Positions 30,990 to 56,714 of a DNA stretch of 64,000 bases are shown piece by piece (positions within the stretch are counted from its first letter, which is position 1; every line of letters starts with the position of its first letter). The stretch lies in NCBI RefSeq assembly GCF_008330225.1, contig NZ_CP042466.1, positions 1,188,501 through 1,252,500 of the forward strand, given 5' to 3'. The notes under the pieces were generated by a model. It did not search any database. It was given only the letters and a program-made list of their open reading frames with translations, and had not been told where the DNA came from. This DNA comes from Geobacter sp. FeAm09 (GTDB lineage: Bacteria; Desulfobacterota; Desulfuromonadia; Geobacterales; Pseudopelobacteraceae). Made by a program: the position numbers and the translations under genes.

Positions 30990-31026
30990 GAACATCCAAA
31001 ATCACAAAACAAAGGAGGCACCCATC

Positions 31027-31908
31027 ATGAGCCTGTCCAAGAAGATCGATTTTGCCGTGGTTTTTAAAGTCGTCAATGCTAACCCTAATGGTGACCCGCT
31101 TAACGGTAATCGCCCACGAACAATTTATGAAGGTAATGGTGAAGTCTCCGATGTCTGCGTCAAGCGTAAGATCCGCAACCGGCTGATAGAAACGGGACAA
31201 CGGATATTTGTACAGTCCGACGACAACAGAAACGATGACCACCCTAGCTTAAAAGCCCGGGCTGATGAAGTCTTGGCCGGCATCAAGAACCCAGAAGAGA
31301 TTACCAGGAAAGCCTGCGAAACTTGGTTTGATGTGCGGGCCTTCGGGCAGCTTTTCGCTTTCAAGGCTTCCGGCGGTAGAAAGGCCAAGGGCGAAGATAG
31401 CGGAGAAGATAAGGGAGTTTCCATTGGTATTCGCGGTCCGGTCAGCGTTCAGTCGGCGTTCAGCATTGCTCCGGTAAGTCTGACTAGTACTCAAATTACC
31501 AAAAGTGTCAGCAGCGAAGGCGACGGCACCAAGCGCGGTTCCGACACCATGGGGATGAAGCATCGTGTTGATCGGGGCATTTATTACTTCTATGGCAGCA
31601 TGAACCCGCAGTTGGCCGTCAAAACCGGGTTCAGCGACGATGATGCTGCTGCCATCAAGGCGGTGCTGCCGAAATTGTTTGAGAACGATGCATCATCGGC
31701 CCGCCCCGAGGGAAGTATGGAGGTCCTGAAGGTGATCTGGTGGGAGCATGCCAGCAAAAGTGGACAAGCATCATCGGCCAAGGTACATCGTAGCCTCATG
31801 GTTAATGACATCGAAGATCTTGCAAATATATTGTCATTCGAGCCAGGCAAGGGCCCGGACGATGCCGGTGAAAACTGGCCGAGGCCTGAAATAATTAATG
31901 GGTATTAA
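31027..31908 (+). CDS. cas7c: Cas7c (Csd2) backbone subunit
   Basis: A 293-residue RAMP protein with the Csd2 N-terminus KKIDFAVVFKVVNANPNGDPLNGNRPRT (split here as separate strings), then VCVKRKIRN and WFDVRAFGQLFAF. It polymerises along the crRNA. AAAGGAGG precedes the ATG. Confidence 0.95.
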   Translation: MSLSKKIDFAVVFKVVNANPNGDPLNGNRPRTIYEGNGEVSDVCVKRKIRNRLIETGQRIFVQSDDNRNDDHPSLKARADEVLAGIKNPEEITRKACETWFDVRAFGQLFAFKASGGRKAKGEDSGEDKGVSIGIRGPVSVQSAFSIAPVSLTSTQITKSVSSEGDGTKRGSDTMGMKHRVDRGIYYFYGSMNPQLAVKTGFSDDDAAAIKAVLPKLFENDASSARPEGSMEVLKVIWWEHASKSGQASSAKVHRSLMVNDIEDLANILSFEPGKGPDDAGENWPRPEIINGY

Positions 31909-32012
31909 AACATCATCTTGATGCTGGCAGCCCTCCGTGAGGGTATCAGCGAAGCAGACCGAGATGAAAAGAAAAAACGGACATGGCAAACGGCGTTCCT
32001 GCGAGGAGCCTT

Positions 32013-32633
32013 ATGAACAACACTTCCGACCCCATCCCCATCTCTGCGCTGGAGCATTACGCCTACTGCCCGCGCCAGTGCGCCCTGATCCATGTGGAGC
32101 GGGTCTGGGACGAAAACCTGTACACCATGCGGGGCAGGGACGTGCATGAACGCGTGCATGACGATTCGTCGCACGAGGCGGCGGGGATACGGATGGAACG
32201 TTCCCTGCCCGTATGGTGCCGCCGATTGAATCTGACCGGCAAGGCCGATTTGGTGGAATTTTGCGGCGATACCCCCTATCCCGTGGAGTACAAATCCGGC
32301 CATCGGCGGAGGGGCGTTCCTGAAACCGTCCAACTCTGCGCCCAAGCCATCTGCCTGGAAGAGATGCTCGGTCTTGCGGTCGGCAAGGGGGCCATCTTCT
32401 GGCATGGTTCACGGGAACGGCAGGAGATCGTTTTTACCGAGGCCATGCGTCGCCAGGTGGAGGAGGTGTCCGCCACCGTTTCAGATATGCTGGAGAAACG
32501 CATGGTGCCGCCGCCGGCGAATGACAAGCGTTGTGAAGGGTGCTCTCTCAAAGAATCCTGCCTCCCCTCAGTGGTGGCGGATAAAGACCGGGGCCGCCGG
32601 GCGGCGCGGGAATTATTCGAGGCCAAACCATGA
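32013..32633 (+). CDS. cas4: Cas4 PAM-selecting nuclease
   Basis: A 206-residue RecB-like nuclease. The iron-sulfur Cys are in YCPRQCAL (N-terminal) and CEGCSLKESC (C-terminal). The RecB motif is PVEYKSG, with the upstream D in GKADLVEF. It works with Cas1-Cas2 to choose and trim spacers with a correct PAM. It overlaps cas1 by 4 bases. Confidence 0.94.
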   Translation: MNNTSDPIPISALEHYAYCPRQCALIHVERVWDENLYTMRGRDVHERVHDDSSHEAAGIRMERSLPVWCRRLNLTGKADLVEFCGDTPYPVEYKSGHRRRGVPETVQLCAQAICLEEMLGLAVGKGAIFWHGSRERQEIVFTEAMRRQVEEVSATVSDMLEKRMVPPPANDKRCEGCSLKESCLPSVVADKDRGRRAARELFEAKP

Positions 32634-33664
32634 AACAGCTTCTCAACACGCTGTACGTCATGACCCAGGGAGCCTATCTGTCCCTTGATCACGAAACCGT
32701 GAGGGTGGAGGTGAATGGAGACTTGAAGCTCCAGGTGCCGCTCCATCATCTCGGTTCCATCGTCACCATGGGCAACGTCATGATCAGCCCGTTTTTTCTG
32801 GGTAAATGCGCTGATGACGGCCGTGCCGTGGTGATCCTGGACCGCAACGGCCGTTACAAATGCCGTATGGTAGGCAAGACAAACGGTAATGTCCTCTTGC
32901 GCCAGGCCCAGTATCAGGCAGGGCAGGATGACGACCACACAACGGCTATCGCCGCTGCCATGACTGCCGGAAAGGTGAAGAACGCCCGCAACGTGTTGCT
33001 GCGGAGCGCGCGGGAATCCGGCGACCCGGAAGAGGAAAGGCATCTGAGAAAATCGGCGGATATCCAGGCCGAAGCACTATTCCATCTCAAATCGGCCCGT
33101 GATACCGACCACGTGCGCGGTTTGGAGGGAGAGGCCGCTGCCGCGTATTTTGATGTTTTCACCCTTATGATGAAACCGGCGGAACGCGACAGCCTCCCCA
33201 TGAACGGCCGTAACCGCAGGCCACCGCTGGACCCGGTGAATGCGCTAATTTCATTTCTTTATACGCTGCTTTTAAATGACTGCATCAGCGCTGTAGAAGG
33301 GGTCGGGCTCGATCCCCAGATGGGATTTCTGCATGTCCCCCGACCGGGGCGACCTTCGCTGGGGCTTGATCTTATGGAAGAATTCCGGGCTTTTATGGCA
33401 GACAGACTGGCTGTCACGCTGATTAACCGCAAGCAGATTACGTTGGAACATTTTGAGCCGCGGCCCGGTGGGGCCGTTTACCTGAACGAGAAGGGCCGCA
33501 AGGAGGTGGTAGCGGCCTGGCAGAAACGCAAACAGGAGGAAACAGAGCATCCGCTGTTGGCCGAAAAAACTCTCATCGGCTTGGTGCCACATCTTCAGGC
33601 TCGTTTGCTGGCCCGGCATCTGCGTGGCGATTTGGAGTCATATGTTCCGTACATCCATCCATAA
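32630..33664 (+). CDS. cas1: Cas1 integrase
   Basis: A 344-residue spacer integrase with the metal-binding set E in LEGEAAAAYF, H in GFLHVPRPG and D in SLGLDLMEEF. It catalyses new spacer insertion at the leader end of the array, with Cas2 and Cas4. Confidence 0.96.
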   Translation: MKQLLNTLYVMTQGAYLSLDHETVRVEVNGDLKLQVPLHHLGSIVTMGNVMISPFFLGKCADDGRAVVILDRNGRYKCRMVGKTNGNVLLRQAQYQAGQDDDHTTAIAAAMTAGKVKNARNVLLRSARESGDPEEERHLRKSADIQAEALFHLKSARDTDHVRGLEGEAAAAYFDVFTLMMKPAERDSLPMNGRNRRPPLDPVNALISFLYTLLLNDCISAVEGVGLDPQMGFLHVPRPGRPSLGLDLMEEFRAFMADRLAVTLINRKQITLEHFEPRPGGAVYLNEKGRKEVVAAWQKRKQEETEHPLLAEKTLIGLVPHLQARLLARHLRGDLESYVPYIHP

Positions 33665-38220: not shown

Positions 38221-39822
38221 CTATCCCCCCTCATATCTCTTGAGCTTCTGGTAAAGCGACGAAAGACTGATGCCGAGTTTCCGGGCGGCAAGCGCTTTGT
38301 CTCCATTGACGATTTGAATTGCCGACAGAATGAGCTCTCGCTCAACATCGTCGATTGGGCGGATCGTGCCGGCAGACGTTACCAAAGACTCCGATTGGCG
38401 TACTATTTTAGGAAGATCGTTGAGGCTTATCCGCTTGCCGTTGCAGAGTGCGACAGCGTGCTCGATCGTGTTCTGAAGCTGCCTGACATTTCCCGGCCAA
38501 TCATACTGGGCGAGCAAGTCAGCCACCTGGGGGGTGAACCCTATTACTTGCCGCTTCATTGTTTGCGAGGCTTTATCCAGAAAAAATTGGGCCAGGGAGA
38601 AAATATCATCCGGTCGCTCCCGAAGCGGCGGCACGATGATCTCGAAGATGCACAGTCGATAATAAAGGTCCTTCCGGAAGCGGCCCGCGGCTACTTCATC
38701 GGCCAAGTTGCGATTCGTCGCGGCAATGATGCGCACATCCACCGGCCGGGAACAGTTTTCGCCCACCCGCCGTATTTCCTTTTCCTGCAATACCCGCAAA
38801 AGCTTTACTTGCATACCCAAAGATATCTCGCCAACTTCATCGAGAAACAACGTGCCGCCGTTGGCTGCTTCAAAAAGGCCTAAGCGCTCCTTGTCCGCCC
38901 CGGTAAAAGCGCCCTTTGTGTGCCCAAAAAATTCGCTTTCCAGCAGTGTCTCCGCAACGGCACCGCAGTTAACGGCGAGAAATGGCTGAGCGGCACGCAG
39001 GGACTCCTTGTGGATGAACCGTGCGATCATCTCCTTGCCAACACCGCTTTCCCCGGTGACGACAACCGATGAATCAACTTTTGCGATACGCTTCGCGAGA
39101 TTCAGGGTTTGGCGCATAATCTTGCTGCTGGCTATGATTCCCGATGACTGTACATCGTTGCCGATGAGTTGTTGGAGTTTGCGGACCCGCTGTTCCGAAC
39201 GCTGCAGTTTGGTTGTCACATCCTTCAGCAGCACATCGATGGTTTCCGTATGGAAAAACGGCAGGTGGGGCTCGATGGCGGCACCCCAGTCCTCCTTGAG
39301 ACGCGTTTCATTGTGGCAGCGGGCATCCCCTTTGGCGCAACACTGGTCTTCAATGCAATAGACCTCCTGGCCAAGCATCCGGGAACAGTAACCGCTGACG
39401 TAACCGGTCATTGTCCAGCATACCGGTTCGTGTGTCAGCCCCAGATGAAGGATATGCTGTTCTGCTTCATACGAGTCTTCCCAGATAGTGGACATGCGGA
39501 ATGTCGGGATAAAACTCATATTACACGTCGGAATGTTGGTCATACCTTGCAGCATATGGAGCGTCGGGCCGCAAGCCCCATCCTGGAGCAGGTCCGGGTA
39601 TTCACTGTCCAAGTTGTCAGCCGTACGCCAACCATGGGCGTAGCCCATGCGTGTCAGGATGTTGCGTGCCGCAAAAATGCCGAGGTTATCTATAAGTTCC
39701 TTGCGTAGCAACCCCAGTGCCACCGCATCGAAAAGCAGGGCTCGGTGCCCCATAAACTGAATGATCCCACCCTTTGGATTGAATGAAAGTAATTTTCTCA
39801 GATCAAGCTCCCGTGCCTTCAT
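38221..39822 (-). CDS. XylR/DmpR-like sigma-54 activator with aromatic-sensor domain (copy 1)
   Basis: A 533-residue activator. Residues 10-115 are XylR_N-like (PKGGIIQFMGHRALLFD), followed by a V4R region, then a AAA+ domain ([22 protein letters not shown]) and a C-terminal HTH (ARKLGISLSSLYQKL). A zinc site with the spacing of MopR/DmpR is visible: C135, E158, C161, C169. The Trp of the phenol pocket seems kept (W114). ATG 39822 has AAAGGAGAGG. The gene is divergent from the cytochrome/flavoprotein operon at 40310, which has a -24/-12 promoter. It probably activates it on binding a phenol-like or other aromatic ligand. Confidence 0.88.
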   Translation of the reverse strand: MKARELDLRKLLSFNPKGGIIQFMGHRALLFDAVALGLLRKELIDNLGIFAARNILTRMGYAHGWRTADNLDSEYPDLLQDGACGPTLHMLQGMTNIPTCNMSFIPTFRMSTIWEDSYEAEQHILHLGLTHEPVCWTMTGYVSGYCSRMLGQEVYCIEDQCCAKGDARCHNETRLKEDWGAAIEPHLPFFHTETIDVLLKDVTTKLQRSEQRVRKLQQLIGNDVQSSGIIASSKIMRQTLNLAKRIAKVDSSVVVTGESGVGKEMIARFIHKESLRAAQPFLAVNCGAVAETLLESEFFGHTKGAFTGADKERLGLFEAANGGTLFLDEVGEISLGMQVKLLRVLQEKEIRRVGENCSRPVDVRIIAATNRNLADEVAAGRFRKDLYYRLCIFEIIVPPLRERPDDIFSLAQFFLDKASQTMKRQVIGFTPQVADLLAQYDWPGNVRQLQNTIEHAVALCNGKRISLNDLPKIVRQSESLVTSAGTIRPIDDVERELILSAIQIVNGDKALAARKLGISLSSLYQKLKRYEGG

Positions 39823-40742: not shown

Positions 40743-42263
40743 ATGAGATTTGCCAAGACAATGAAGAGTGCGATGCTGCTGCTTGTGATAGCGGTGTCGA
40801 GCGGCGCCTATGCGGCTGATAAAACCATGAGCACCGATATAGTCGTGGTCGGAGGTGGCTCCGCCGGTATGTCCGCCGCCCTGGAAGCCGCATACGGCGG
40901 AGCGAAGGTGATTGTACTCGAGAAAAACCCGTACCTTGGTGGAAGCTCCAACTTTGCAGAGGGGCCTTTCGGCGTAGAATCAGACCTTCAACGCAAAAAA
41001 TCCTATGGATTATCCAAAGACGAAGCCTACAAACACATTATCGAATTCAATCACTATTTGAACAATGCCCCGATCATCAGAAAGTTTGTCGAAAACTCTG
41101 CCTCAAATATTGAATGGCTGACCAATCAGGGCGTTGGCCTCGACCCCATTCACATTTCCGTAACCGAGCCGATGGTGTGGCACGTAATCCTGAACAAGGG
41201 GCAATATATCCACGGGGGGGCTCTTATCACCACCTTGCAGGCCAAGGCCAAGGAACAGGGCGTCACGTTCATGCTCAGGACGCCTGCGAAGAAGCTGATC
41301 TACGATGGTTCCAAGGTGGCTGGAGTTGAAGCTGTTGACGCCCTTGGGAACACCATTGCCATCAAGGCCAAAGCGGTCATTATCACGACTGGCGGGTTTG
41401 GCAACAGCAAGGAACTGGTACGGAAATGGACCAAGTTCGATCCTGAAAAATTCAAACCAACGCTTCCTCTCAACAAAACCGGTGACGGCATCCTGATGGC
41501 CCAGAAGGTTGGCGCTGAAACCGAAGGACTTAACCTGATGCTCCATCCCGGGACCGAAGGCAAAGGCATTATCCCGCTTGGCAACCTCTATACCATGACG
41601 TGGCAGCCGTTTCTGTGGGTGAACAAATATGGCGAGCGTTTCATAGACGAATCCGTGGCATTCAGCTTTGCCCAGTCTGGTAACGCGATTTCCCGGCAGC
41701 GCGACGCCTTTGCATGGACAGTCTTTACCGATGAAGAGGTGAAGTATGTGATGGAAAAAGGTGTGGACAACGGTATTGGGGTACTGGTGCCGGTCACTAC
41801 CAAGTTGACTAACCTGCAAAACGAAATCAACGGGGCTCTTGCAGCAGGCAGTGAAAGCTTCAAGGCAGCCGATTCGATAGAAGGCCTTGCCCGTCAGATA
41901 GGTGTTTCTCCCGAAAAACTGGAGAAGACGATTGGTGCGTACAACAAATATGCTGAAAACAAATATGACGAGCAATTTGTCAAAGATCCCCGGTGGATGA
42001 AGCCGGTTAAATCAGGCAAGTACTATGCGCTCAAGATATTCCCTTATCATTTCGTTTCCATTGGCGGCATCAGGGTAAACACCGACATGGAGGTCACTGA
42101 CAAGAAAGACCAAGCTATCCCGGGACTCTATGCGGGTGGCTGTGACGTCGGCGGGCTCTATGGCGACACCTATACTCTTTGGGCTTCAGGCCATGCCTAC
42201 GGCTTTGCAGTATTCTCCGGCCGCGAAGCGGCTAAGAGCGCCGTCAAGTATCTCAAGAATTGA
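40743..42263 (+). CDS. Periplasmic FAD-dependent reductase, flavocytochrome c/fumarate reductase family (copy 1)
   Basis: A 506-residue flavoprotein with signal peptide (SSGAYA). The FAD-binding Rossmann motif is IVVVGGGSAGMSAALEAAYGGAKVIVLEK, and C-terminal WASGHAYGFAVFSGREAA closes the FAD site. It belongs with fumarate, urocanate, acrylate and methacrylate reductases, which pair with a separate tetraheme cytochrome as here. By eye, the fumarate-binding His and Arg and the proton-donor Arg are not conserved: the stretch after GERFIDE lacks Arg and GDTYTLWASG replaces the Arg-bearing loop. The substrate is therefore probably not fumarate. From its regulator it may be an aromatic enoate or other aromatic compound. 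Confidence 0.85.
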   Translation: MRFAKTMKSAMLLLVIAVSSGAYAADKTMSTDIVVVGGGSAGMSAALEAAYGGAKVIVLEKNPYLGGSSNFAEGPFGVESDLQRKKSYGLSKDEAYKHIIEFNHYLNNAPIIRKFVENSASNIEWLTNQGVGLDPIHISVTEPMVWHVILNKGQYIHGGALITTLQAKAKEQGVTFMLRTPAKKLIYDGSKVAGVEAVDALGNTIAIKAKAVIITTGGFGNSKELVRKWTKFDPEKFKPTLPLNKTGDGILMAQKVGAETEGLNLMLHPGTEGKGIIPLGNLYTMTWQPFLWVNKYGERFIDESVAFSFAQSGNAISRQRDAFAWTVFTDEEVKYVMEKGVDNGIGVLVPVTTKLTNLQNEINGALAAGSESFKAADSIEGLARQIGVSPEKLEKTIGAYNKYAENKYDEQFVKDPRWMKPVKSGKYYALKIFPYHFVSIGGIRVNTDMEVTDKKDQAIPGLYAGGCDVGGLYGDTYTLWASGHAYGFAVFSGREAAKSAVKYLKN

Positions 42264-44611: not shown

Positions 44612-44687
44612 CAACGATGAAAGGAGACAAGCAAGCATACTTGGATCACTATGACCGATGGACAAACCACAACGAAAGGAAAGATTC

Positions 44688-46220
44688 ATGAAAATTAGTG
44701 TTTCATTCTTGTCCAAGACAGCATGTCTCGTAGCTGTGCTTGTAGCTACGATCTGCGTGAATGGCGTATTTGCCGCTGAGAAATATTCTGCCGACGTTGT
44801 TGTTATTGGGGCCGGCGGTGCGGGCTTAAGCGCGGCACTCACCGCTGCACAAGGCGGCGCAAAGGTCATTTTGCTGGAAAAAGACAAGATGGTCGGTGGC
44901 ACTGGCAACTTTGCTGAAGGTGTGTTTGGCGTTGAAACCGAGATGCAGCGGCTCAAGCAAATCGGGCTGACCAAGGATCATGTTTTCAACGAGGAAATGG
45001 CGGACACGCGTTGGAATGCCAATGCCGCTCTCGTTCGGCGTTTTCATAATGAATCGGCCAAGACCATTGACTGGCTGGTGGCCCAAGGTGTCAAGTTCGA
45101 AGGCCCTTCAAGGAACCATTTTACCAACAACCCGACGTGGCACCTGATTGAAGGTAGGGGCGCGGCATTAATACGGGCCTTGTACGCAAGGATCAAAGAA
45201 AATCCGAATGTTACCCTGCTGCTTGAGACCCCCGGCAAGAGCCTGATCGTCAGGGACGGCCGCGCTGTTGGCGTCAAGGCCCAGAACAAAGCGGGTGAAG
45301 AGGTCATTGCCGAAGCGCGTGGCGGCGTCATCATCGCTACGGGAGGTTTTGCCAACAGTCCTGAAATGATCAAGAAGTATACGGGCATGGAGAATGTCCT
45401 CAATGTGGCTCCTTTGAAAAAGACCGGAGACGGCATCAATATGGCCATATCGCTTGGCGCCGACGTGGAAGGCATGAATATCCTGCAGTTCGTCGCCCTT
45501 ATGGATGCCGTGCCTGGGGGGCGTCCCGACCTTGCTATCGGTTGTATGGGCATAGAGCCGCGTAACATATGGGTAAACAAGTTCGGTAAGCGGTTTACCA
45601 ACGAATATGTCGCTGTTGACTTCCCCTTTGCCGCAAACGCCATCAAGCGCCAGAAACTGGCGTGGGGTATTTTTGATGAAAAGCAGAAGCAGCGTTTAAA
45701 GGAAACAGGGCTTGAAGCTGGTCTTGGTGTCGTTGTGCCGCCCGGAAAGAAATTCCCCAACTTCGATGAAATCTGGGACAAGGCGATTGCCGCCGGTAAC
45801 CCGTTTGTCGTAAAGGCTTCCAGTCTTGAGGAATTGGCTGCAAAAACCAAGCTGCCCCTTGACGCCCTGAAACAAACCATCGCCGAATATAATAAAGACG
45901 TTGCCGTGAACAAGGACCATGCTTTTGCAAAGGATGAGCGCTATTTGCAGGCAATTGATGCAAATGGCCCGCTGTATGCCGTCAAAATCAAGGAGGTGCT
46001 GCTGACAACGGTTGGTGGGGTGAAGGTTGATGAGTATTTACACCCCTTGGACAAGAACGACAACGTGGTCGTATCCGCCCTGTACGTGACAGGTAATGAC
46101 GTGGGTGGGATGTATTCCGGCGATTATACGCTTACCTCCGCATCAGGTTCTTCATATGGATTTGCAGTCAATAGCGGACGTTTTGCCGCCAAAAGCATTC
46201 TCGAGGAATTGGGGAAATAA
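44688..46220 (+). CDS. Periplasmic FAD-dependent reductase, flavocytochrome c/fumarate reductase family (copy 2)
   Basis: A 510-residue flavoprotein, signal peptide to about residue 27 (GVFAAE). The FAD motif is VVVIGAGGAGLSAALTAAQGGAKVILLEK and the C-terminal motif is SASGSSYGFAVNSGRFAA. It is about half identical to copy 1 by eye. In the active-site stretch after GKRFTNE there is no Arg, and the LLTTVGG region lacks the fumarate-binding His, so fumarate is an unlikely substrate. The two copies differ around these positions (SVAFSF versus YVAVDF), which suggests different substrates. AAAGGA precedes the ATG. Confidence 0.85.
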   Translation: MKISVSFLSKTACLVAVLVATICVNGVFAAEKYSADVVVIGAGGAGLSAALTAAQGGAKVILLEKDKMVGGTGNFAEGVFGVETEMQRLKQIGLTKDHVFNEEMADTRWNANAALVRRFHNESAKTIDWLVAQGVKFEGPSRNHFTNNPTWHLIEGRGAALIRALYARIKENPNVTLLLETPGKSLIVRDGRAVGVKAQNKAGEEVIAEARGGVIIATGGFANSPEMIKKYTGMENVLNVAPLKKTGDGINMAISLGADVEGMNILQFVALMDAVPGGRPDLAIGCMGIEPRNIWVNKFGKRFTNEYVAVDFPFAANAIKRQKLAWGIFDEKQKQRLKETGLEAGLGVVVPPGKKFPNFDEIWDKAIAAGNPFVVKASSLEELAAKTKLPLDALKQTIAEYNKDVAVNKDHAFAKDERYLQAIDANGPLYAVKIKEVLLTTVGGVKVDEYLHPLDKNDNVVVSALYVTGNDVGGMYSGDYTLTSASGSSYGFAVNSGRFAAKSILEELGK

Positions 46221-49053: not shown

Positions 49054-49251
49054 ATGTGCAAAGCAGGCGGCGGACTTGAAAGGGACATTCTTATCGCTCA
49101 GTTGACCACGCTTGTCAACGAGTGGGACAAAATCATCAATTCATCTGATGCGGATGAATCGGATCATGTCATGAAGCACGGCATCATGATGTGCCGCAAC
49201 CATGTCGCCGCTCTTATCGGCCAGCAACTGCTGGAGCACCACCACCATTGA
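49054..49251 (+). CDS. Small protein of unknown function
   Basis: A 65-residue helical protein, AAAGGACC before the ATG, with two Cys (C2 and MMCRNH) and a His-rich end (LEHHHH). It lies between the chemoreceptor and the dehydratase-like genes. The repeated helical content and the CxxH-like end could bind metal. No family recognised. Confidence 0.5.
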   Translation: MCKAGGGLERDILIAQLTTLVNEWDKIINSSDADESDHVMKHGIMMCRNHVAALIGQQLLEHHHH

Positions 49252-49302: not shown

Positions 49303-50460
49303 ATGCCTAATACATTGAAATCCATAGCGCTGCAGCAGCTGCAGGAAGCGGCCGGCACACTTGCCGGTCCGGCGGTAAAGGAGTGGAAACAGCAGGGGGG
49401 CAAGGTTCTGGGATGCATGTACAACTATATCCCGGAGGAACTGATCACCGCAGCAGGGCTCTTGCCGTATCGCATGCGAGCGACCGGCAGTACCGGTTCA
49501 GAACTCTCGGAAACCTGCTTTACCCAGGTGAACTGCAGCCTTGTCCGGCACTTCTTCGATTCCGGCCTGCGCGGGGATCTGGGGTTTTTGGATGGCGTTG
49601 TTTCAGTCAACAACTGTGACCATATGCGCAGGCTCTATGACAACTGGGTTGCCAAGATCAAGGTCGGTTACCAGCACTTCATGCCGTTTCCGAAAAAGAG
49701 CGGGCTTGAGCAGGTTGAGGCATACCGGCTGCAGCTGGAGCGCTTCAAAGCAGAACTGGAGGAGCATTTCGGGGTCGAGATCACGGACGAGAAGCTGTGC
49801 GATGCGATCACTCTGCACAATGAGACCCGAGGTCTCCAGCGACGGCTCCATGAACTGAGAAAAGGCGAGGCCCCTCCCATAACGGGTGCCGAGGCAATGG
49901 CCGTCATGGTTGCCGGGGGCAGCATGCCGAGAAAGCAGTACAATGCCATCCTCAAACAGCTGCTGGACGACTGTGCCAATGCTGAGGGTATCAGTGATTA
50001 CAAAGCCCGCTTGATGGTAATTGGCGGAGAACTCGATGATCCGAAACTTATCGAGATAATCGAAAGCCAGGGCGGTCTTGTTGTTGCGGACTCCCTTGGC
50101 TACGGCTCCAGGGGCTGCGCCTGTGATGTGGATACCACGGGTGATCTGCTGACGGCACTGTCACGCTATCAGTTGATGCAGCATCCGGCCGACCCGCGCA
50201 TTAATGGCACTTCTGCCGCCAGGAACGCCTATGCCAGCGATATGGCAACGTCCGGCAGGGTTGACGGCGTGGTTGCGGTCCGCCTGCCACAGTGCGATTT
50301 GTGGGGGCTGGAACTGCTCAACCTGTCGAGACATTTCAAAAGGGATAACATCCCGTATCTGTCACTGGAGGTGGAATATGTTCTCGGCAGCATCGGCCAG
50401 CTTAAAACAAGGGTTCAGGCGTTTACGGAAAGCATTGTGGAGGCGAAACATGTCAAATGA
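49303..50460 (+). CDS. 2-hydroxyacyl-CoA dehydratase/benzoyl-CoA reductase family subunit (HgdB/BcrC-like)
   Basis: A 385-residue subunit. Conserved cluster-ligand Cys are in GCMYNYIPEEL, SETCFTQVNCS and SVNNCDH, and a Rossmann-like part follows (RLMVIGGELDDPKLIEIIE, GSRGCACD). The family holds [4Fe-4S] or double-cubane clusters and does ATP-driven low-potential reductions or dehydrations, for example hydroxyglutaryl-CoA dehydratase, class I benzoyl-CoA reductase and the double-cubane protein. It overlaps the next subunit gene by 11 bases. Substrate unknown. Confidence 0.85.
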   Translation: MPNTLKSIALQQLQEAAGTLAGPAVKEWKQQGGKVLGCMYNYIPEELITAAGLLPYRMRATGSTGSELSETCFTQVNCSLVRHFFDSGLRGDLGFLDGVVSVNNCDHMRRLYDNWVAKIKVGYQHFMPFPKKSGLEQVEAYRLQLERFKAELEEHFGVEITDEKLCDAITLHNETRGLQRRLHELRKGEAPPITGAEAMAVMVAGGSMPRKQYNAILKQLLDDCANAEGISDYKARLMVIGGELDDPKLIEIIESQGGLVVADSLGYGSRGCACDVDTTGDLLTALSRYQLMQHPADPRINGTSAARNAYASDMATSGRVDGVVAVRLPQCDLWGLELLNLSRHFKRDNIPYLSLEVEYVLGSIGQLKTRVQAFTESIVEAKHVK

Positions 50461-51730
50461 GAAGAGAGGCTTGCAGCGGTTTTGCGAGTATCGTGACCGT
50501 ATTCAGAGCTTCATTGACGGCATCAGCTCATCACCGGAACCGAATCCGGTTCTGTTGAAGTTCTTCGGTATCATCTTGGAAAACGACAAGAAAACGATCG
50601 ATTGCATCGAAAACAATAAGCCGTTGCTTTCCGGCTGGTACGGTAATGCGCCGGAAATTTTTGCCGCCATGGACGTGCACTATTTCTGCGCTGTCGACAA
50701 CATCCTGGCCCATCAGCCGTTTACCAGTGACCTGGAGGGGATGGATGCCTCGGCCGTTCCGTCCGATATGTGTGGGCTGATCAAGTTGGGCGTATATGGG
50801 GTGGAGGCTGGCCTGGTGCCCGTTCCTACCGCCATGATCACCATGCTGGAGCCGTGCGACGCCCAGTCGGCCATCCATGAGGCGTGGGAGAACACCGATG
50901 CCTGGAAAGGCGTACCTACTTTTATCCTCGACCCTGCCTACGGCAACGACAAGGAGGATTACGTCTACTTTGCCGGTGAATTGAAAAGGATGATCGCGTT
51001 CCTGGAGGACCATCTGGGGAGAAAGATGGATTACAACAAGCTGCGCGAGGTGGTCGAACGAACCAACGAGCAGTATGCTGCCTGGGCGGAATACAACGAA
51101 CTGCGCCGCGCCATCCCGTGTCCGCATGATTCGTTTGTCGGCTCAAAACTGGGGTGGGGAGCAACGCAGCATGTTACCGCCGGGCTCCCGGAAACGACGG
51201 AGATGTTCAAGATGCTGGCCTATGACGCCGAACAGAAGGTCAAACAGGGAATCGGAGCGCTGCCGAAGGAGAAGGTCAGGGTGCTTTGGGCCGACCTGGT
51301 GCCGACCTGGGCCGATCCGTTGGCGGCCTGGCTGGCCGAAGAGTGTGGCGCCAATATCGTCATGGATTTCCAGGGGTATACCCCCTACGAGCATATCGAT
51401 ACGTCCAGCGTGGAAAGCATGCTGCTCGGGCTTGCCAAGCGCAACATGGCCGAGGTGCCGATGATTCGGCAGGCCAGGGGGACCGTGGATGTCATGATCG
51501 AAGACATAACGCGGATCGTCAGGGACTACAAATGCGATTGTGTTTTCTTCCCGGGGCACGTAGGTCACAAGGACCAGTCCGCTTCCATCGCTTTCATCAA
51601 AGAAGCCTGCCGCGACCTGAAGATCCCCTTGCTGATTTTGACGGTGGATAACTTTGACCCGCGCTACACGCCGTTTGATGTGCTCAAGCGCCAGATTACG
51701 GAGTTTTTCAACGCACACGGCTTGTTGTAG
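50450..51730 (+). CDS. 2-hydroxyacyl-CoA dehydratase/benzoyl-CoA reductase family subunit (HgdA/BcrB-like)
   Basis: A 426-residue second subunit with Cys at PSDMCGLIKLG, MLEPCDAQS and RAIPCPHDS as likely cluster ligands. The C-terminal half has DCVFFPGHVGHKDQS and the family ending IPLLILTVDNFDPRYTPFDVLKRQI, similar to HgdA/BcrB. GGAGG precedes ATG 50450, inside the previous gene. Together with the 49303 product and the activator at 51930 it would make a two-component, ATP-dependent reductase. Confidence 0.85.
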   Translation: MSNEKRGLQRFCEYRDRIQSFIDGISSSPEPNPVLLKFFGIILENDKKTIDCIENNKPLLSGWYGNAPEIFAAMDVHYFCAVDNILAHQPFTSDLEGMDASAVPSDMCGLIKLGVYGVEAGLVPVPTAMITMLEPCDAQSAIHEAWENTDAWKGVPTFILDPAYGNDKEDYVYFAGELKRMIAFLEDHLGRKMDYNKLREVVERTNEQYAAWAEYNELRRAIPCPHDSFVGSKLGWGATQHVTAGLPETTEMFKMLAYDAEQKVKQGIGALPKEKVRVLWADLVPTWADPLAAWLAEECGANIVMDFQGYTPYEHIDTSSVESMLLGLAKRNMAEVPMIRQARGTVDVMIEDITRIVRDYKCDCVFFPGHVGHKDQSASIAFIKEACRDLKIPLLILTVDNFDPRYTPFDVLKRQITEFFNAHGLL

Positions 51731-51929
51731 AAAAATTGAAAAAAGCAGGGAAGGGTTGCAGAAAATGCGGCAGGCGGTCTTTGCCACTAAAAAATCAAGC
51801 AAGCATTCCGGCACAAGCTCGATGAGTTCGTTGGCTTCTGTACGACATGCGCCATGTGATGTCGAAGTGCTCATGCTCTCTTGGGTGCCAAAGGTCGTCT
51901 GCCGCAGAAAATGACTATGGAGAGGTTTT

Positions 51930-52715
51930 ATGCTCGTTGCTGGTTGTGATCTCGGGTCTGCTGCCGGGAAAGCGGTCATCATGGCCGATGGAGAAATCCG
52001 TGCCTGGGCGGTTGTACAGGCCACCACAAGTCCGGAGAAAACGGCTTTTCTGGTTTTGGGCGAGGCGGCTAAGCTGGCAGGACTGAATACGATTGAAGAC
52101 CTGCAGTACATCATGGGTACCGGTTATGGCCGTGCGACGGTTTCCCTTACCCATGACAACATGTCAGAAATCAGTTGTCATGCCCGTGGCGCCCACTGGC
52201 TGCACCCGGCTGCGCGTACGGTTGTCGATGTGGGCGGGCAGGATTGCAAGGTGATTTCTATTGATGATGAAGGCAGGGTGCTGGATTTCCAGATGAACGA
52301 CAAGTGCGCCGCTGGAACGGGGAGGTTCTTCGAGGCCATGTCCAGGGTGTTGCACTGCTCGCTGGAAAAGTTTTCCGAACTCTCCATGCAGTCGGACAAC
52401 CCGGCCAACATCACCAAACAGTGCAGCGTGTTCGCAGAATCCGAGGTGGTCACGCTGATAAATAACGGGGTGCCGGTGCACCACATCGCCGCCGGGCTGA
52501 CCGACTCCATAGCCCGCAGGTTGCTTGCCATGGTGTACCGTCTTGGCGCCGTCGAGGATATCGTGGTCACGGGTGGGTGTGCCAAGAATGAGGGCATGGT
52601 CAGGTCACTGGAAAGCAGGCTGGGGCATACGATAGTCAGGCTGGCCCAAAATCCGCAGACCGTCGGCGCCCTGGGGGCGGCCCTGTTCGCGCGTGAAAAG
52701 CTTATGCAAAAGTGA
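51930..52715 (+). CDS. ATPase activator of the dehydratase/reductase (HgdC/BadF/BcrA-like)
   Basis: A 261-residue ASKHA-fold ATPase. Motifs are GCDLGSAAGKAVI (phosphate 1), GTGYGRA, VDVGGQDCKVI and MNDKCAAGTGRFFE, and CSVFAESEV supplies the second cluster Cys. VTGGCAKNEGMV is the adenosine motif. The homodimer bridges one [4Fe-4S] cluster and injects an electron into the dehydratase component on ATP hydrolysis. It begins 200 bases after the HgdA-like gene. Confidence 0.92.
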   Translation: MLVAGCDLGSAAGKAVIMADGEIRAWAVVQATTSPEKTAFLVLGEAAKLAGLNTIEDLQYIMGTGYGRATVSLTHDNMSEISCHARGAHWLHPAARTVVDVGGQDCKVISIDDEGRVLDFQMNDKCAAGTGRFFEAMSRVLHCSLEKFSELSMQSDNPANITKQCSVFAESEVVTLINNGVPVHHIAAGLTDSIARRLLAMVYRLGAVEDIVVTGGCAKNEGMVRSLESRLGHTIVRLAQNPQTVGALGAALFAREKLMQK

Positions 52716-52778
52716 CCTCGGTCCGAACAGTAGTCTGAAACTGCCGTATCGCAGTCAAAACAGTGCCATTGGGGTGAT

Positions 52779-53603
52779 ATGTCTTTATTTGATGAACAGA
52801 TTCGACAGGTCTTCCGTTACCAGGAACATATGGCGGACAAAGGGAATTACGTTAGAGAGGTGCAATGTCCCTGGCCTGTGGTCAACGGGCGGGAAGAATT
52901 CCCGTTCAAAGTCGGTCCAGGTGCCGGTTCCGGCCTTGTGCTGAAATCCGAGACTTTTCTGGAACTGGGTAGCCCGACGGCAGGTTCCTGTGCCTTTGCC
53001 CTCTTCTCCGACCAGACATCTGCCGTGCATGACGGGAGAGTGCGATTGATTGGCCCGGATATCCATGAGTCCGACGAAAAGACGTATCCGTTCGGGCAGG
53101 TAATCATGGCAGCCGGTGCAGACTTGACCGAAGCTGATTACCATAGCCTGTGCCAGAGCCAGTATGTCGGAGACCAGGTCGAGGGATTCATGGTCAAGAG
53201 TACTCCAGGTCATATTTGGGGCAGGGTCAGCCGCCAGGCAGCGCAGAAAGGCTTTAACTTTGCCTTCCTGGGAGGAGCGCTGATTGCGTTGGTCAAGGCC
53301 CAGATTCCTCATGTCACCCACATGGAGGTATTGTTTGTAACCTCCGACAAGGCAGACTTGCAGCCTTTGGTTGAGATTGGGGGTGCTGTTGCACAGATTG
53401 CCAAAGCGATCAAGGAACGGCACTGGAAGGAGCGGGGGATAGACATTGACGAGTGTGCCTTTGGCGGACACTGTGGAAATTGCAGTGACAAGTCTGTTTG
53501 TGACGAGGTCAAAAAGCACCTGCACAGCCGCAAGCACAAGATTGAAGAACTTGACTACCACGGAACCAGCATGGTTTTGCAGCCATCCGAGAAGAGGAAT
53601 TGA
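52779..53603 (+). CDS. Acetyl-CoA synthase/CO dehydrogenase beta-subunit-like protein
   Basis: A 274-residue protein that resembles part of the acetyl-CoA synthase/CdhC family (RLIGPDIHESDEKTYPFGQVIM, EGFMVKSTPGHIWGRVS). Its C-terminal Cys group GGHCGNCSDKSVCDEV may bind an Fe-S cluster. It is much shorter than catalytic ACS, and I see no full A-cluster set. In this cluster it may be an accessory or corrinoid/Ni-type partner of the HgdB-like enzyme; role unknown. The next gene, CooC-like, starts 5 bases later. Confidence 0.6.
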   Translation: MSLFDEQIRQVFRYQEHMADKGNYVREVQCPWPVVNGREEFPFKVGPGAGSGLVLKSETFLELGSPTAGSCAFALFSDQTSAVHDGRVRLIGPDIHESDEKTYPFGQVIMAAGADLTEADYHSLCQSQYVGDQVEGFMVKSTPGHIWGRVSRQAAQKGFNFAFLGGALIALVKAQIPHVTHMEVLFVTSDKADLQPLVEIGGAVAQIAKAIKERHWKERGIDIDECAFGGHCGNCSDKSVCDEVKKHLHSRKHKIEELDYHGTSMVLQPSEKRN

Positions 53604-53608
53604 TAACG

Positions 53609-54400
53609 ATGAGCAGTATGGCCAATCAGGGGAATAACACCAGAATCTATGCTGTCTGCGGTAAAGGCGGGGTTGGAAAGACCGCCTTCACTGCCATGCT
53701 GACCAGGGCTTTGCTGGATAGCGGGCGGGCCGGCCGGCTGCTGGTGATCGATGCGGACCCGGCGCAGGGGGTGACCAACGCCTTGGGGATGCAGGTCGAA
53801 AAGACCATGGGGCAGGTCCGGGAATCCATTATCACAGCAGCCAGGGATGGTCGCACCAGCGAACTGGCTGAAATCACCAATGCGATCGACTATCTTGTGA
53901 TGGAAGCGCTGGTTGAGTCGGATAGTCTGGCTTTGCTGGCCATGGGGCGTACCGAGTCTTTGGGCTGTTTCTGCCCCGTTAATGATCTCTTGCGGGATGC
54001 CGTCACGGCAGTGGCCGGGAAGTTCGATACCATCCTGATTGATGGTGAGGCCGGCCTTGAACAGATAAACCGCCAGGTTGTGGAAGCGTTGGACTGCCTG
54101 ATCATGATGACGGACTCTTCGGCGCGGGGGCTCCGGACCGTCGCCATCCTTAAAGAGATGATCGAAGAGAAAAAGGTCATACGGTGTAACAGGACGGGAG
54201 TTGTTTTCAACAGGGGTGACATTGACGAGAATTATTTGGCTCAAGCCGCTGTGAAGGTCGGAGTCAACGTCTTTGGTTTCGTCCCGCAGGACCCGAATGT
54301 GGCAGATTACGACTTGGTCGGCCGCCCCCTGCTGGAACTTCCCTCCGATTCTGAAGCTCTCGCGGCTGTGCGCAGGATTGCGGCAATTCTGGAACCATGA
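53609..54400 (+). CDS. CooC-like P-loop ATPase (CO dehydrogenase/ACS maturation factor type)
   Basis: A 263-residue SIMIBI ATPase with the deviant Walker A GKGGVGKT, switch I region DADPAQGVTNALG, CFCPVNDLLR (the CxC pair that binds nickel in CooC dimers) and a Walker B region FDTILIDGEAG. CooC proteins insert Ni into CO dehydrogenase or ACS. Its linkage to the ACS-like gene suggests a Ni- or Fe-S-containing partner in this cluster. Confidence 0.85.
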   Translation: MSSMANQGNNTRIYAVCGKGGVGKTAFTAMLTRALLDSGRAGRLLVIDADPAQGVTNALGMQVEKTMGQVRESIITAARDGRTSELAEITNAIDYLVMEALVESDSLALLAMGRTESLGCFCPVNDLLRDAVTAVAGKFDTILIDGEAGLEQINRQVVEALDCLIMMTDSSARGLRTVAILKEMIEEKKVIRCNRTGVVFNRGDIDENYLAQAAVKVGVNVFGFVPQDPNVADYDLVGRPLLELPSDSEALAAVRRIAAILEP

Positions 54401-54533: not shown

Positions 54534-54962
54534 ATGCAACTACACACTTACGGGCAATATCCCCCCTCGTGGCATGGCATGGTGATCGAGCAACAACGCT
54601 TGACCGAGCGGAAGCCCACCTGCGACAGCCGCTACCAGAACATCATCGGCCCGCTGGACACCATGATCGAACTGCTCCGCAAAAAACCGGACGTGAATCT
54701 CGCCAGAGAACTGGACCGGCTCCTGGATACCATCATGGAGCACATCGGTTTGGAAAATAGCTACATGGAAATGGTCGCCTTTCCCCAGGCAGCCCGGCAC
54801 CGTCTGGACCACCAGATCCTGTGGGTTGACACTGCCGGATTGGCCCACCGCTTCGACAAGCGCCTTGACGTACTGTACGGCGAGTTGGTTTCGATCCGTG
54901 TGCGCTGGATGGACCATATCAGTGTCCATGACCGGGCCTTTGAGGCATACTTGGTGTGCTAG
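54534..54962 (+). CDS. Degenerate hemerythrin-like protein (copy C)
   Basis: A 142-residue paralogue of the proteins at 2142 and 22936. H70, E74, H89, H93, H128 and D133 match the hemerythrin ligands; the first His is Tyr (Y34, in CDSRYQNII). AAGGACTGAG precedes the ATG. Two ECYC Cys-rich genes follow, then an MFS transporter gene. It may bind oxygen, NO or another small ligand with an altered centre. Confidence 0.65.
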   Translation: MQLHTYGQYPPSWHGMVIEQQRLTERKPTCDSRYQNIIGPLDTMIELLRKKPDVNLARELDRLLDTIMEHIGLENSYMEMVAFPQAARHRLDHQILWVDTAGLAHRFDKRLDVLYGELVSIRVRWMDHISVHDRAFEAYLVC

Positions 54963-54972
54963 GAGGATACTT

Positions 54973-55188
54973 GTGGGAAATGGTGCAGATGACAGGCATG
55001 AAGAACAAGGTGGCAGTGGCTCCCTGTGTTGTTTTGTAAAGCATCCTTTTCCCGAGTGCTACTGTCTCGATATTACCAGCAGGAATGTTCCCAGCATAAT
55101 AACATATTGCATTGATGACAGTATTTCTTGCCCGATATACCAGCGGAGGGCCGGAAAAAGCGAAGCGGGTGACAAGCAGCCTTTATGA
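54973..55188 (+). CDS. Small ECYC Cys-rich protein (copy C1)
   Basis: A 71-residue protein from GTG 54973, 5 bases after AGGAGGA. The pattern is LCCFVKHPFPECYC, YCIDDSISCPIYQRR. It is closely similar to copy B at 23389 and starts 11 bases after the hemerythrin-like stop, so the two are very likely co-translated. Unknown function. Confidence 0.6.
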   Translation: MGNGADDRHEEQGGSGSLCCFVKHPFPECYCLDITSRNVPSIITYCIDDSISCPIYQRRAGKSEAGDKQPL

Positions 55189-55255
55189 TGTTGGGGCAGC
55201 GTTAGGCTGGCGTGGCGCGTTTGCATAGTTCCTGTATGTTTGCTGTCAACGGAAC

Positions 55256-55438
55256 ATGGGGGATTATGGCGAGGATAGCGATTTGATCAGTCAGGATATG
55301 TGCCGTTTTGCTCAAAAACCTTTTCGGGAATGTTACTGCATGGATTTCAGAGATATCTCCAAAGTTATAGCTCTGTGCCGCAATGATTTTGCTTCGTGTC
55401 CGGTATATCGCCAAAGAACAGCGGAACATGATTCCTGA
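55256..55438 (+). CDS. Small ECYC Cys-rich protein (copy C2)
   Basis: A 60-residue protein with MCRFAQKPFRECYC and LCRNDFASCPVYRQR, the same Cys order as copies B and C1 but lacking the doubled first Cys. Its end overlaps the MFS transporter start by 11 bases, so translation may be coupled. Function unknown. Confidence 0.6.
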   Translation: MGDYGEDSDLISQDMCRFAQKPFRECYCMDFRDISKVIALCRNDFASCPVYRQRTAEHDS

Positions 55439-56714
55439 CCGGCCAAAAGCGGCGCATGCGGAGAACCGGAGCCTGTTCCGGGGGCTGTTCCTGGTTAACT
55501 TCGCCATCACTCTGGGTTTCGGCATCGCCGACGCCTTCTTCTCTCTCTACGTTTTCAGCCTAGGGGCAAGGGGCATGCTCCTGGGCCTGCCGCTCGTCTT
55601 CTACTCCCTCTCCAAGATCATCCTCAGCCCCTTCATGGGCGCCTGGGCCGACCGGATCGGCCGGAGAAAGGTAGCTGCCGTTAGCCTTGGCCTCTACCTG
55701 TTCGTCTCGGTCTCATATCTCTTCACTACCAGCCTCACCCTCATTACCCTCCTGCGCCTGCTCCAGGGGATAGGCTGCGCCATGTTCCGGCCGATGGTGG
55801 TCTCCTTGGTGAGCGAATGCACCTGCGACAAGCGGCGGGCCACGGTTATGGGGACCTTCGACATCTCCTTCTACGGCGCCCTGAGCCTGGGGCCGCTTGT
55901 CGGCGGCATTCTCAAAGACCTGTGGGGCTTCCGGGGGATCTTCGCCACCCTCGCGCTCCTGTGTATCACCGCCTTGGCAGTAGCCTTTATCTCCATCCCC
56001 AGCCACAAGGACGCTTCCTCACAACCGACACACTATGAAACGGAACACCTTTGGGGCCTCCTGAACATCACCCGCCACAGTTCCCTGCGTGGCCTTCTGG
56101 CCTTCATCTTCGGCCGGGCCTGCGGCATTTCCTTGCTGGGTGCCTTCCTCCCCATCATGCTCACGGCCCGGCTGGGGCTGAACGGTACCCGGGCCGGGCT
56201 GGTCATGGCCTCCTCCACCCTGGTGATGACCCTCTTGCTCCGCCCCATGGGCATGCTCTCGGACCGGGCGCCGCGCAAATCCCTGGTGGTTGCCGGGGGC
56301 ACCGCGGTCTCGCTGCTCTACTTCCTGATCCCGGTGGCGGCGGGTTTTAGCCAGATCCTGGCGCTGGCGGTGGGTATCGGTCTGTTCAGCGTGTTGTCCC
56401 AGCCTGCGAGCACGGCACTTTTGGTGGAGGAGGGGAGCCGCCATGGCATGGGTGCGACGGTGGGAACCTTCAACTCGGTGCTGAACTTGGGGTTCGTCTC
56501 CGGCCCACTTTTGGGTGCGGGATTGCAGACTACCCTGGGACTGACGGCGGTGTTTTACGCCGCCGGGGTTATGGGATTGGGGGCGGTGGTGCTGTTCATG
56601 GTCAATGTGTTTTATGAAGAAGGTGGGCAGACGTGGAAGCAGCCAATGACGGTGTATGTGTCGATGAGTAAAAAGTTGCAGTGGAGTGAAAGAATGGATA
56701 TTGAAGGCCAATGA
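55428..56714 (+). CDS. MFS transporter
   Basis: A 428-residue major facilitator with twelve predicted helices. The first cytoplasmic loop motif is GAWADRIGRRKVAA (between helices 2 and 3), and the mirror motif is GMLSDRAPRKSL near residue 280. ATG 55428 is chosen because it overlaps the Cys-rich gene; a 15-residue longer form is less likely. Substrate unknown; its C-terminal 40 residues are a soluble tail. Confidence 0.85.
   Translation: MIPDRPKAAHAENRSLFRGLFLVNFAITLGFGIADAFFSLYVFSLGARGMLLGLPLVFYSLSKIILSPFMGAWADRIGRRKVAAVSLGLYLFVSVSYLFTTSLTLITLLRLLQGIGCAMFRPMVVSLVSECTCDKRRATVMGTFDISFYGALSLGPLVGGILKDLWGFRGIFATLALLCITALAVAFISIPSHKDASSQPTHYETEHLWGLLNITRHSSLRGLLAFIFGRACGISLLGAFLPIMLTARLGLNGTRAGLVMASSTLVMTLLLRPMGMLSDRAPRKSLVVAGGTAVSLLYFLIPVAAGFSQILALAVGIGLFSVLSQPASTALLVEEGSRHGMGATVGTFNSVLNLGFVSGPLLGAGLQTTLGLTAVFYAAGVMGLGAVVLFMVNVFYEEGGQTWKQPMTVYVSMSKKLQWSERMDIEGQ

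Follow-up and report, generated by a model that had tools for sequence, protein, structure and literature searches.

A recurrent gene module linking HgdB/BcrC-type subunits with a truncated acetyl-CoA synthase-like protein and a CooC-like ATPase: a candidate ATP-dependent low-potential reductase in Geobacter sp. FeAm09

Few reductions in biology are as hard as those carried out by benzoyl-CoA reductases and DCCPs. For DCCP, the reduction of acetylene, azide and hydrazine is given in the available part of PMC11971306. A literature search, with most subscription journals outside its coverage, found no description of a gene set that combines HgdB/BcrC-type subunits with an ACS-like and a CooC-like protein. 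Further candidates for a described counterpart were considered and set aside: the anaerobic benzene 'Magic' cluster, considered as an unknown anaerobic cluster of recent date, has a different gene set according to the accessible portions of PMC13101534 and PMC13416013, and the isoprene reductase operon of Acetobacterium, with its HypA/HypB partners, encodes a different enzyme as presented in the available text of PMC10134865.

The preliminary description of the window (the whole stretch of 64,000 nucleotides that was analyzed) had named a cluster of five genes, all of which were confirmed on the plus strand, with Pfam and PDB matches agreeing with the families proposed. The genes, referred to below as A to E, and one preceding ORF are:

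49054..49251, plus strand: 65-aa ORF with a C-terminal HHHH, directly 5′ of A; doubtful member (sequence, tblastn)
49303..50460, plus strand: A, HgdB/BcrC/BzdN-type subunit, 385 aa (PF06050, 7.5e-78; best solved relative BzdN, 1.7e-42)
50450..51730, plus strand: B, second HgdB/BzdO-type subunit, 426 aa (PF06050, 1.5e-45; profile alignment; AF2 model)
51930..52715, plus strand: C, ASKHA-type activator ATPase (HgdC/BcrAD/BzdQ-like), 261 aa (PF01869, 6.5e-55; TIGR00241 CoA_E_activ)
52779..53603, plus strand: D, truncated ACS-like protein, 274 aa (PF03598/CdhC, residues 42-191, 5.4e-16)
53600..54400, plus strand: E, CooC-like MinD-family ATPase, 266 aa (CbiA/MinD-type, 7.3e-14; CooC1 3kje, 7.1e-10)

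B was taken to start at the ATG at 50450, the listed ORF start at 50204 being over-extended, and E at the TTG at 53600, with the ATG at 53609 also possible. A tblastn search of the fetched loci returned no relative of the 65-aa His-tailed ORF. Starting from direct observations on gene content, motifs, co-inheritance and the absence of a CODH/ACS client in the six genomes searched, we lean towards the view that the five genes form one module, an ATP-dependent very-low-potential reductase with D as a metallo-subunit and E as its maturase.

BzdNOPQ, the class I benzoyl-CoA reductase of the Azoarcus type, is one of the closest described systems. Both large subunits score well above the PF06050 gathering score of 28.4 (262.9 bits for A and 156.7 for B), A is nearest to BzdN, the B profile is most like BzdO among solved proteins (3.4e-38), and C passes TIGR00241 as an acyl-CoA dehydratase activase (242.8 bits, cut-off 125.4). 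Cys126 and Cys165 of C, both present in 10/10 of the C proteins listed, stand where HgdC has the cysteines of its subunit-bridging [4Fe-4S] cluster. Unlike in BzdNOPQ, however, a single activase lies beside the window genes, A and B remain below the cut-offs of the NCBIfam equivalogs for Bzd subunits N (144.2 of 453.8 bits) and O (35.6 of 448.6 bits), and, to our knowledge, D and E are not among the parts of Bzd systems. Fold and activator type are shared with DCCP/DCCP-R as well, but DCCP is a homodimer whereas A and B differ, and A of the window lacks the distal ligands at their usual places and scores under the NF040772 cut-off (179.3 bits, cut-off 350).

As in BzdN, all six double-cubane ligands are present in 35 of the 36 other full-length A proteins, whereas A of the window keeps the proximal-cluster cysteines (78, 105 and 331 in the ligand tables) and has Tyr40, Gly266 and Asp297 at the distal positions occupied in BzdN by Cys 36, 263 and 293. 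Its Cys38, Cys272 and Cys274 are close to two of the three distal places and could hold a shifted cluster. Nearly all related A proteins differ from it at the distal-cluster positions, so the enzyme encoded in the window may be less active or act differently. An argument built on A/B pairs with no nearby D (L084-L087), which keep the six cysteines, was dropped because D is found elsewhere in those genomes.

B keeps two cluster cysteines (108 and 136), and at the third ligand position, Cys380 in BzdO, it has His373 within the motif GHVGHKD (profile alignment with BzdO, HadB, DCCP and MbdO). This position is His (Asn once) in a clade of 17 and Cys in 28 others, and the shift to His maps to a single change on the tree with 100/100 support. 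According to the same alignment, His131 of the BzdO acid/base pair is not conserved by position in B; the placement of its partner Glu65 is uncertain. The AF2 model of B has a pLDDT of 90, with HadB (3o3m_A, TM 0.79) as best fold match. Beside the change in B stands one in D, where Cys71 is found in 9/9 cases with His or Asn in the linked B and in 1/13 with a tabulated linked B carrying Cys; the Helarchaeota D (L015) has Cys71, yet Cys is the residue in those B homologues of its genome that were read. The Cys71 of D and the His of B may go back to one shared old ancestor. Because the window clade combines the loss of this cysteine from B with the extra cysteine in D, its B probably works by a chemistry other than that of benzoyl-CoA reductase.

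The ACS-like character attributed to D held for ACS domain 2 (approximately residues 39-201) and the start of the A-cluster cysteine motif, and for nothing beyond these. All 23 Foldseek matches at E ≤ 0.001 were CODH/ACS, and Cys226-x5-Cys232-x2-Cys235-x5-Cys241 falls where the A-cluster has its cubane ligands, with the profile match reaching ACS residue 517, stopping at the third A-cluster Cys, and the protein ending about 30 residues past the motif. Three of these cysteines are invariant (29/29) and the fourth is present in 22/29. Judged from its sequence, D thus carries the cubane-ligand motif of the A-cluster, including its first Cys position, and lacks the Cys-Gly-Cys nickel site. The latter, the distal-nickel motif, was found in 0/29 D proteins, which counts against a nickel centre; the missing counterpart of the fourth A-cluster Cys and the poor prediction of the cysteine region (pLDDT < 50 for residues 224-230) count against the reading of D as a metallo-subunit. 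Unlike the acetyl-CoA synthase/CdhC beta subunit, D has no domain 3, and it scores below the cut-offs of all ACS equivalogs (e.g., 65 of 356 bits); a full ACS was ruled out by length and motif.

For E, CooC1 is the closest solved structure, and both the deviant Walker A motif (GKGGVGKT) and the Cys-x-Cys pair (GCFC, Cys123/Cys125) were present in 23/23 proteins. In CooC1 the corresponding Cys-x-Cys pair binds Zn, with which Ni competes, as described in the available part of PMC6006190. By these two motifs E fits a CooC-type nickel metallochaperone and might bind and insert nickel. On the other side, no CooC model was matched in the NCBIfam scan, where the best match, archaeal MinD, stayed below its cut-off (a point against the maturase role) and ApbC and MrpORP matched weakly. 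In the E tree, a single group (100/99) unites the 23 module proteins and three solitary E of genomes that carry D; the copies linked to CODH/ACS fall outside it, a difference from the CooC/AcsF nickel insertases. A role as CODH/ACS helper was rejected on the basis of this grouping and of the window genome, where neither ACS nor CO dehydrogenase nor another CooC-like gene was found; five further genomes gave the same result.

The five-gene order in other genomes was among the checks proposed in the preliminary description, which would have been refuted had the genes not been co-conserved. The set recurs across phyla and is inherited together, so the combination is not a product of chance. Across 29 D loci, the fetched stretch also contained B in 24, C in 24, A in 23 and E in 21. 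D-linked sets occur in the phylum of Geobacter and in Myxococcota, Elusimicrobiota, Ignavibacteriota and Bacteroidota, and in pieces in Chloroflexota, Actinomycetota and Helarchaeota. Against a single module count the 8/29 D loci with E missing from the fetched stretch, the distance of 9 kb to E in L015, and the two loci (L015, L067) with D but no A or B within about 20 kb. Given the co-inheritance, the failure to find ACS/CODH or a second CooC-like gene in the six genomes searched and the separate grouping of E, D and E most likely serve the A-B-C module rather than CODH/ACS.

Such a module, which looks like an oxygen-sensitive enzyme system, would extend the benzoyl-CoA reductase/2-hydroxyacyl-CoA dehydratase/DCCP superfamily by an added metallo-subunit. 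By homology, ATP hydrolysis by C would drive single low-potential electrons into A, which would hand them on to the cluster at the active site of B. D would be a partner of A/B whose putative [4Fe-4S]-type centre derives from the cubane part of the A-cluster in ACS. E would be its dedicated CooC-type maturase and would supply a metal, most likely Ni, either to D or to the interface between D and B. The idea that an ATP-driven HgdB/BcrC-type enzyme of low potential goes together with a CooC-type ATPase and a Cys protein resembling ACS is thereby supported, the enzyme type by homology; nickel itself and the contact between D and B are guesses. So is the substrate, which might be an unsaturated or aromatic carbon compound, or isoprenoid-like in the subtype linked to linalool-dehydratase-family genes. 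The CoA or C1 intermediates considered in the preliminary description are likewise conjectural. The label 'CrtC-like' for a secreted-looking 431-aa protein in L007 was dropped, as neither Pfam nor NCBIfam supported it.

D and E could instead help to assemble the Fe-S clusters of A/B (double-cubane or active-site) without being working parts of the enzyme, with E moving Fe-S or Fe and D acting as scaffold. Fe-S carriers do exist among MinD-family ATPases, in line with the weak ApbC and MrpORP matches of E, and the A proteins co-occurring with D nearly all have the six double-cubane ligands. We nevertheless regard this as rather unlikely, as the D and E motifs of the window are intact though A has no Cys at any of the three distal positions (an objection weakened if Cys38/272/274 hold a shifted cluster), and the sister of this A (L080) misses 2/3 distal ligands in a genome that contains E together with the end of a D gene. 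Moreover, we know of no D- or E-like assembly factors in printed treatments of BzdNO and DCCP. That D is a ferredoxin-like redox donor to C, with E only maturing its Fe-S cluster and no nickel involved, would suit its position next to A/B/C, its three invariant cysteines plus a fourth in most proteins, as expected for a [4Fe-4S] cluster, and the lacking Cys-Gly-Cys. It is unlikely, however, since simple electron transfer leaves the retained ACS domain 2 (about 150 residues) unexplained, separate ferredoxin- or flavodoxin-domain genes are present at L062, L052 and L058, and ordinary [4Fe-4S] ferredoxins, as far as we know, need no CooC-type ATPase.

Quite improbable is a window copy working like a CoA dehydratase of the HAD type, with one cluster each in A and B and the electron used catalytically rather than consumptively. 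The (R)-2-hydroxyisocaproyl-CoA dehydratase HadBCI likewise has two subunits plus an activator, HadB tops the fold matches of B, and the three proximal ligands left at their usual places in A come near the HAD-type cluster inventory in the available part of PMC11971306. Yet A (133.2 of 700 bits, HadC) and B (39.4 of 750 bits, HadB) are far under the NCBIfam cut-offs, the third Cys of HadB is replaced by His in B, and no HAD operon with D and E was found in the literature searched. As for a decaying, non-functional import, the tree neighbour of B comes from an actinobacterial MAG, so the module was probably acquired; D was not found in four congeners searched, and conserved ligands are missing from A. 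Decay is nonetheless very improbable, with all five reading frames intact, the D and E motifs complete and the GC3 of the module genes within the range of their neighbours.

If the reductase reading with D as metallo-subunit is right, the superfamily has gained, in a widely shared offshoot, a second metal centre that may contain nickel, in the form of a captive ACS-derived subunit with its own metallochaperone. Natural variants, in which A has six or three of the known cluster cysteines and B has Cys or His, would then serve as tests of cluster roles, and the module would be a new candidate for attacking unsaturated hydrocarbons and isoprenoids under anaerobic conditions. More tentatively, it might represent a new class of ATP-driven nickel-iron-sulfur reductases, in which a miniature A-cluster on D with nickel inserted by E and a rearranged, His-ligated B cluster would pass ATP-energized electrons via Ni to a carbon substrate, the linalool-dehydratase-linked subtype acting on isoprenoids, e.g., in anoxic lakes.

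Scans of the window for sigma-70 promoters and terminators gave no more than shuffled sequences, and the sigma-54 scan with one mismatch allowed found 5 sites against 6.8 expected. The single exact -24/-12 match (39708-39722, minus strand) lies far from A, so a sigma-54 promoter for the module was rejected and co-regulation by aromatic activators is not supported. What stands of the suggested island with aromatic-sensing operons is its gene content: two XylR_N/V4R sigma-54 activators are encoded about 5 and 9 kb upstream of the module.

The five open reading frames that the preliminary description had placed at 49303-54400 are all present there on the same strand (+). Subunits A and B are PF06050 proteins (Pfam), and neither reached the NCBIfam equivalog cut-offs for benzoyl-CoA reductase, 2-hydroxyacyl-CoA dehydratase (HAD) or double-cubane cluster protein (DCCP). 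C exceeds the NCBIfam cut-off for a BcrAD/HgdC-type activase, and by homology it would very probably inject electrons into A/B in an ATP-driven manner. E is a MinD-family ATPase with CooC1 as nearest solved structure; no CooC model of NCBIfam gave a match, and the best NCBIfam match, archaeal MinD, was under cut-off. D, introduced as acetyl-CoA synthase (ACS)-like, does match ACS/CdhC, but at 274 aa it covers only part of these proteins. The features of the window considered here are:

25942-33664, CRISPR-Cas genes (Cas3, Csd1, Cas7, Cas1), which we take to be type I-C, upstream of the module
40743-42263, FAD_binding_2 flavoprotein, near a XylR/DmpR-type sigma-54 activator
44658-46220, second FAD_binding_2 flavoprotein, likewise near such an activator
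49303-54400 (+), module A-B-C-D-E
54534-56714, hemerythrin-like gene, then an MFS transporter gene

Three D sequences were used as queries against 84,980 species (one genome apiece), which yielded 49 pattern-matching stretches and D relatives encoded at 9 loci, from Chloroflexi, Deltaproteobacteria (Myxococcota in the tree listing), Elusimicrobia, Ignavibacteriae, Bacteroidetes, two Geobacter (G111, G121), Helarchaeota and an actinobacterial MAG. A D profile search of the phylum gave a match at 1e-12 in 257/395 genomes; among the matches listed, most were frames of ~400-800 aa, as expected for true ACS/CdhC, and 36 besides the window were short frames (E up to 1.4e-27), of which 20, hand-picked mostly from the upper part of the list, were examined. 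The resulting 29 D loci comprise the window, 8 loci from the species and congener searches and the 20 short-frame loci (L017 was omitted, as its contig carries just the end of D). On the fetched stretches, A accompanied D in 23/29, B in 24/29, C in 24/29 and E in 21/29; since the loci were selected via D, these counts describe the neighbours of D. L084-L087 show that A/B pairs can also stand on a stretch without D. Among the five loci lacking B, D lies close to a contig end in three (L009, L053, L055), and neither A nor B was found in ~20 kb in the other two, where C and E lie 8-9 kb from D (L015) or an E-like gene lies ~15 kb away on the same contig (L067, G277:C21). The search of other genomes showed the five genes to be co-conserved; they occur together as C-A-B-D-E in L010 and as A-B-C-D-E in the window.

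The part of ACS covered by the profile of the 29 D sequences begins where domain 2 begins and extends to residue 517 of ACS, and window D terminates ~30 residues after this part. In the profile alignment its Cys226, 232 and 241 correspond to the three leading cysteines of the A-cluster motif (presumably Cys506, 509 and 518 of Moorella) and Cys235 has no ACS counterpart. Unlike ACS, D has no equivalent of Cys528 or of the Cys-Gly-Cys nickel site, the CGC motif occurring in 0/29 sequences. Cys232, 235 and 241 are invariant (29/29), and the Cys226 column holds Cys in 22/29. Significant structure matches of the predicted D model (pLDDT 85) were all CODH/ACS, with the Cys region itself poorly predicted.

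A CooC1-type Cys pair and a deviant Walker A motif were found in 23/23 E proteins. In CooC1 this pair sits at the dimer interface and binds Zn, with Ni as a competitor (PMC6006190); the same review calls it uncertain whether certain CooC proteins bind nickel. We infer that E may handle nickel.

No other client of D and E is in sight in the window genome or in five drafts. In the window genome D is the sole PF03598 match, the sole Prismane-family match is a hydroxylamine reductase (820 bits), and no E paralogue was found at 1e-3. Among 12 other module genomes, larger ACS-type matches occurred in 7, and D was the sole PF03598 match in 5 (G111, G121, G577, G578, G579); in these five no match exceeded the CODH cut-off (3 weak matches, frames of 547-556 aa) and there was one E-like gene apiece at 1e-15; as these genomes are drafts, absence carries less weight in them than in the window genome, which is closed. 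A tree was built from 35 E-like proteins, taking in just 12 of the further E-like copies and dropping fragments <200 aa; in it, 23 module E and 3 solitary copies (G195, G277, G269, where the D loci examined had no adjacent E) formed one group (100/99). Nine fell outside it, 7 of them sharing a contig with an ACS gene (6 by similarity, L103 by an A-cluster motif read by eye).

The double-cubane ligands of BzdN are given as Cys36/73/100/263/293/327 and the catalytic cluster ligands of BzdO as Cys95/128/380 (PMC11971306). Since 73/100/327 match the BzdO ligands positionally, Cys36/263/293 were taken as the putative distal set. All six ligands are kept in 35/37 full-length A proteins, a count that leaves out a truncated (L058), a frame-split (L060) and a partial A (L012). 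The distal positions are occupied by Tyr40, Gly266 and Asp297 in window A and, in its nearest relative (L080), by Tyr, Trp and Cys. We consider it slightly favoured that D works as a metallo-subunit and is matured by E, with nickel a tentative choice of metal. That D and E would instead build the double-cubane cluster seems unlikely, being weakened by the window, where the D and E motifs are intact despite an A without distal ligands at the usual places; its odds are slightly raised by Cys38, two residues ahead of the first distal position, and Cys272/Cys274, a few residues past the second, which make a shifted cluster in window A conceivable (L080 A has no such nearby Cys).

Across 45 B proteins (over-extended frames L050 and L057 left out), the members of one clade (17 proteins) have His (16) or Asn (1) as third cluster ligand, and the remaining 28 have Cys; a single change on the tree (100/100 support) accounts for the shift. 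In the profile alignment this position falls on the third cysteine ligand of BzdO, HadB, MbdO and DCCP, the proteins that the predicted B model (pLDDT 90) also matches in structure, and a Cys-Cys-His cluster site is predicted. The position of window D residue 71 holds Cys in 9/9 D with a linked B His/Asn and in 1/13 with a tabulated linked B Cys, possibly reflecting contact between both sites or common descent.

D was not found in four congeners searched, window B and E cluster with an actinobacterial MAG in trees, and module GC3 is within the neighbours' range; the module was likely gained horizontally.

Neighbouring genes vary between subtypes, and therefore the substrate probably differs as well. 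A linalool dehydratase/isomerase family protein, assigned by PF18566 (9e-73) in L007 and by similarity to the L007 protein in the others, adjoins the module at four D loci, two from Geobacter and one each from Elusimicrobia and Bacteroidetes:

L007, 13130-14914
L008, 13016-14794
L011, 13310-15094
L013, 4124-5794

The A/B pair is doubled in L007 and L011. All four proteins look secreted by eye and stand beside an unassigned ~430-aa protein; some of the source MAGs bear lake names. PF18566 had no match in the window genome, and the same search matched no control genome either. The L062 module adjoins a gene with sub-cut-off acyl-CoA dehydrogenase matches and flavodoxin/ferredoxin-domain genes, and L063 and L064 resemble it by eye. 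The window module neighbours two flavoproteins, a Phenol_MetA_deg outer-membrane protein, a chemoreceptor and two XylR-type regulators. The flavoprotein at 44658-46220, the one of the two tested, is nearest to vinyl phenol reductase VprA (337/600 bits, well under cut-off), and its N-terminus looks signal-like by eye. As a mere first guess, the substrate of the window module may be phenylpropanoid-like.

The MFS protein of the gene pair at 54534-56714 recurs at 83-86% identity at five further places in the window genome (one split in two frames) and hemerythrin adjoins the MFS gene in three congeners too, so that the pair looks like a repeated cassette outside the module. In Helarchaeota G575 (L084, L085), arrays of A/B/C homologues stand beside proteins that by eye resemble GlcD/GlcF-type FAD and Fe-S subunits, and L049 has similar neighbours.
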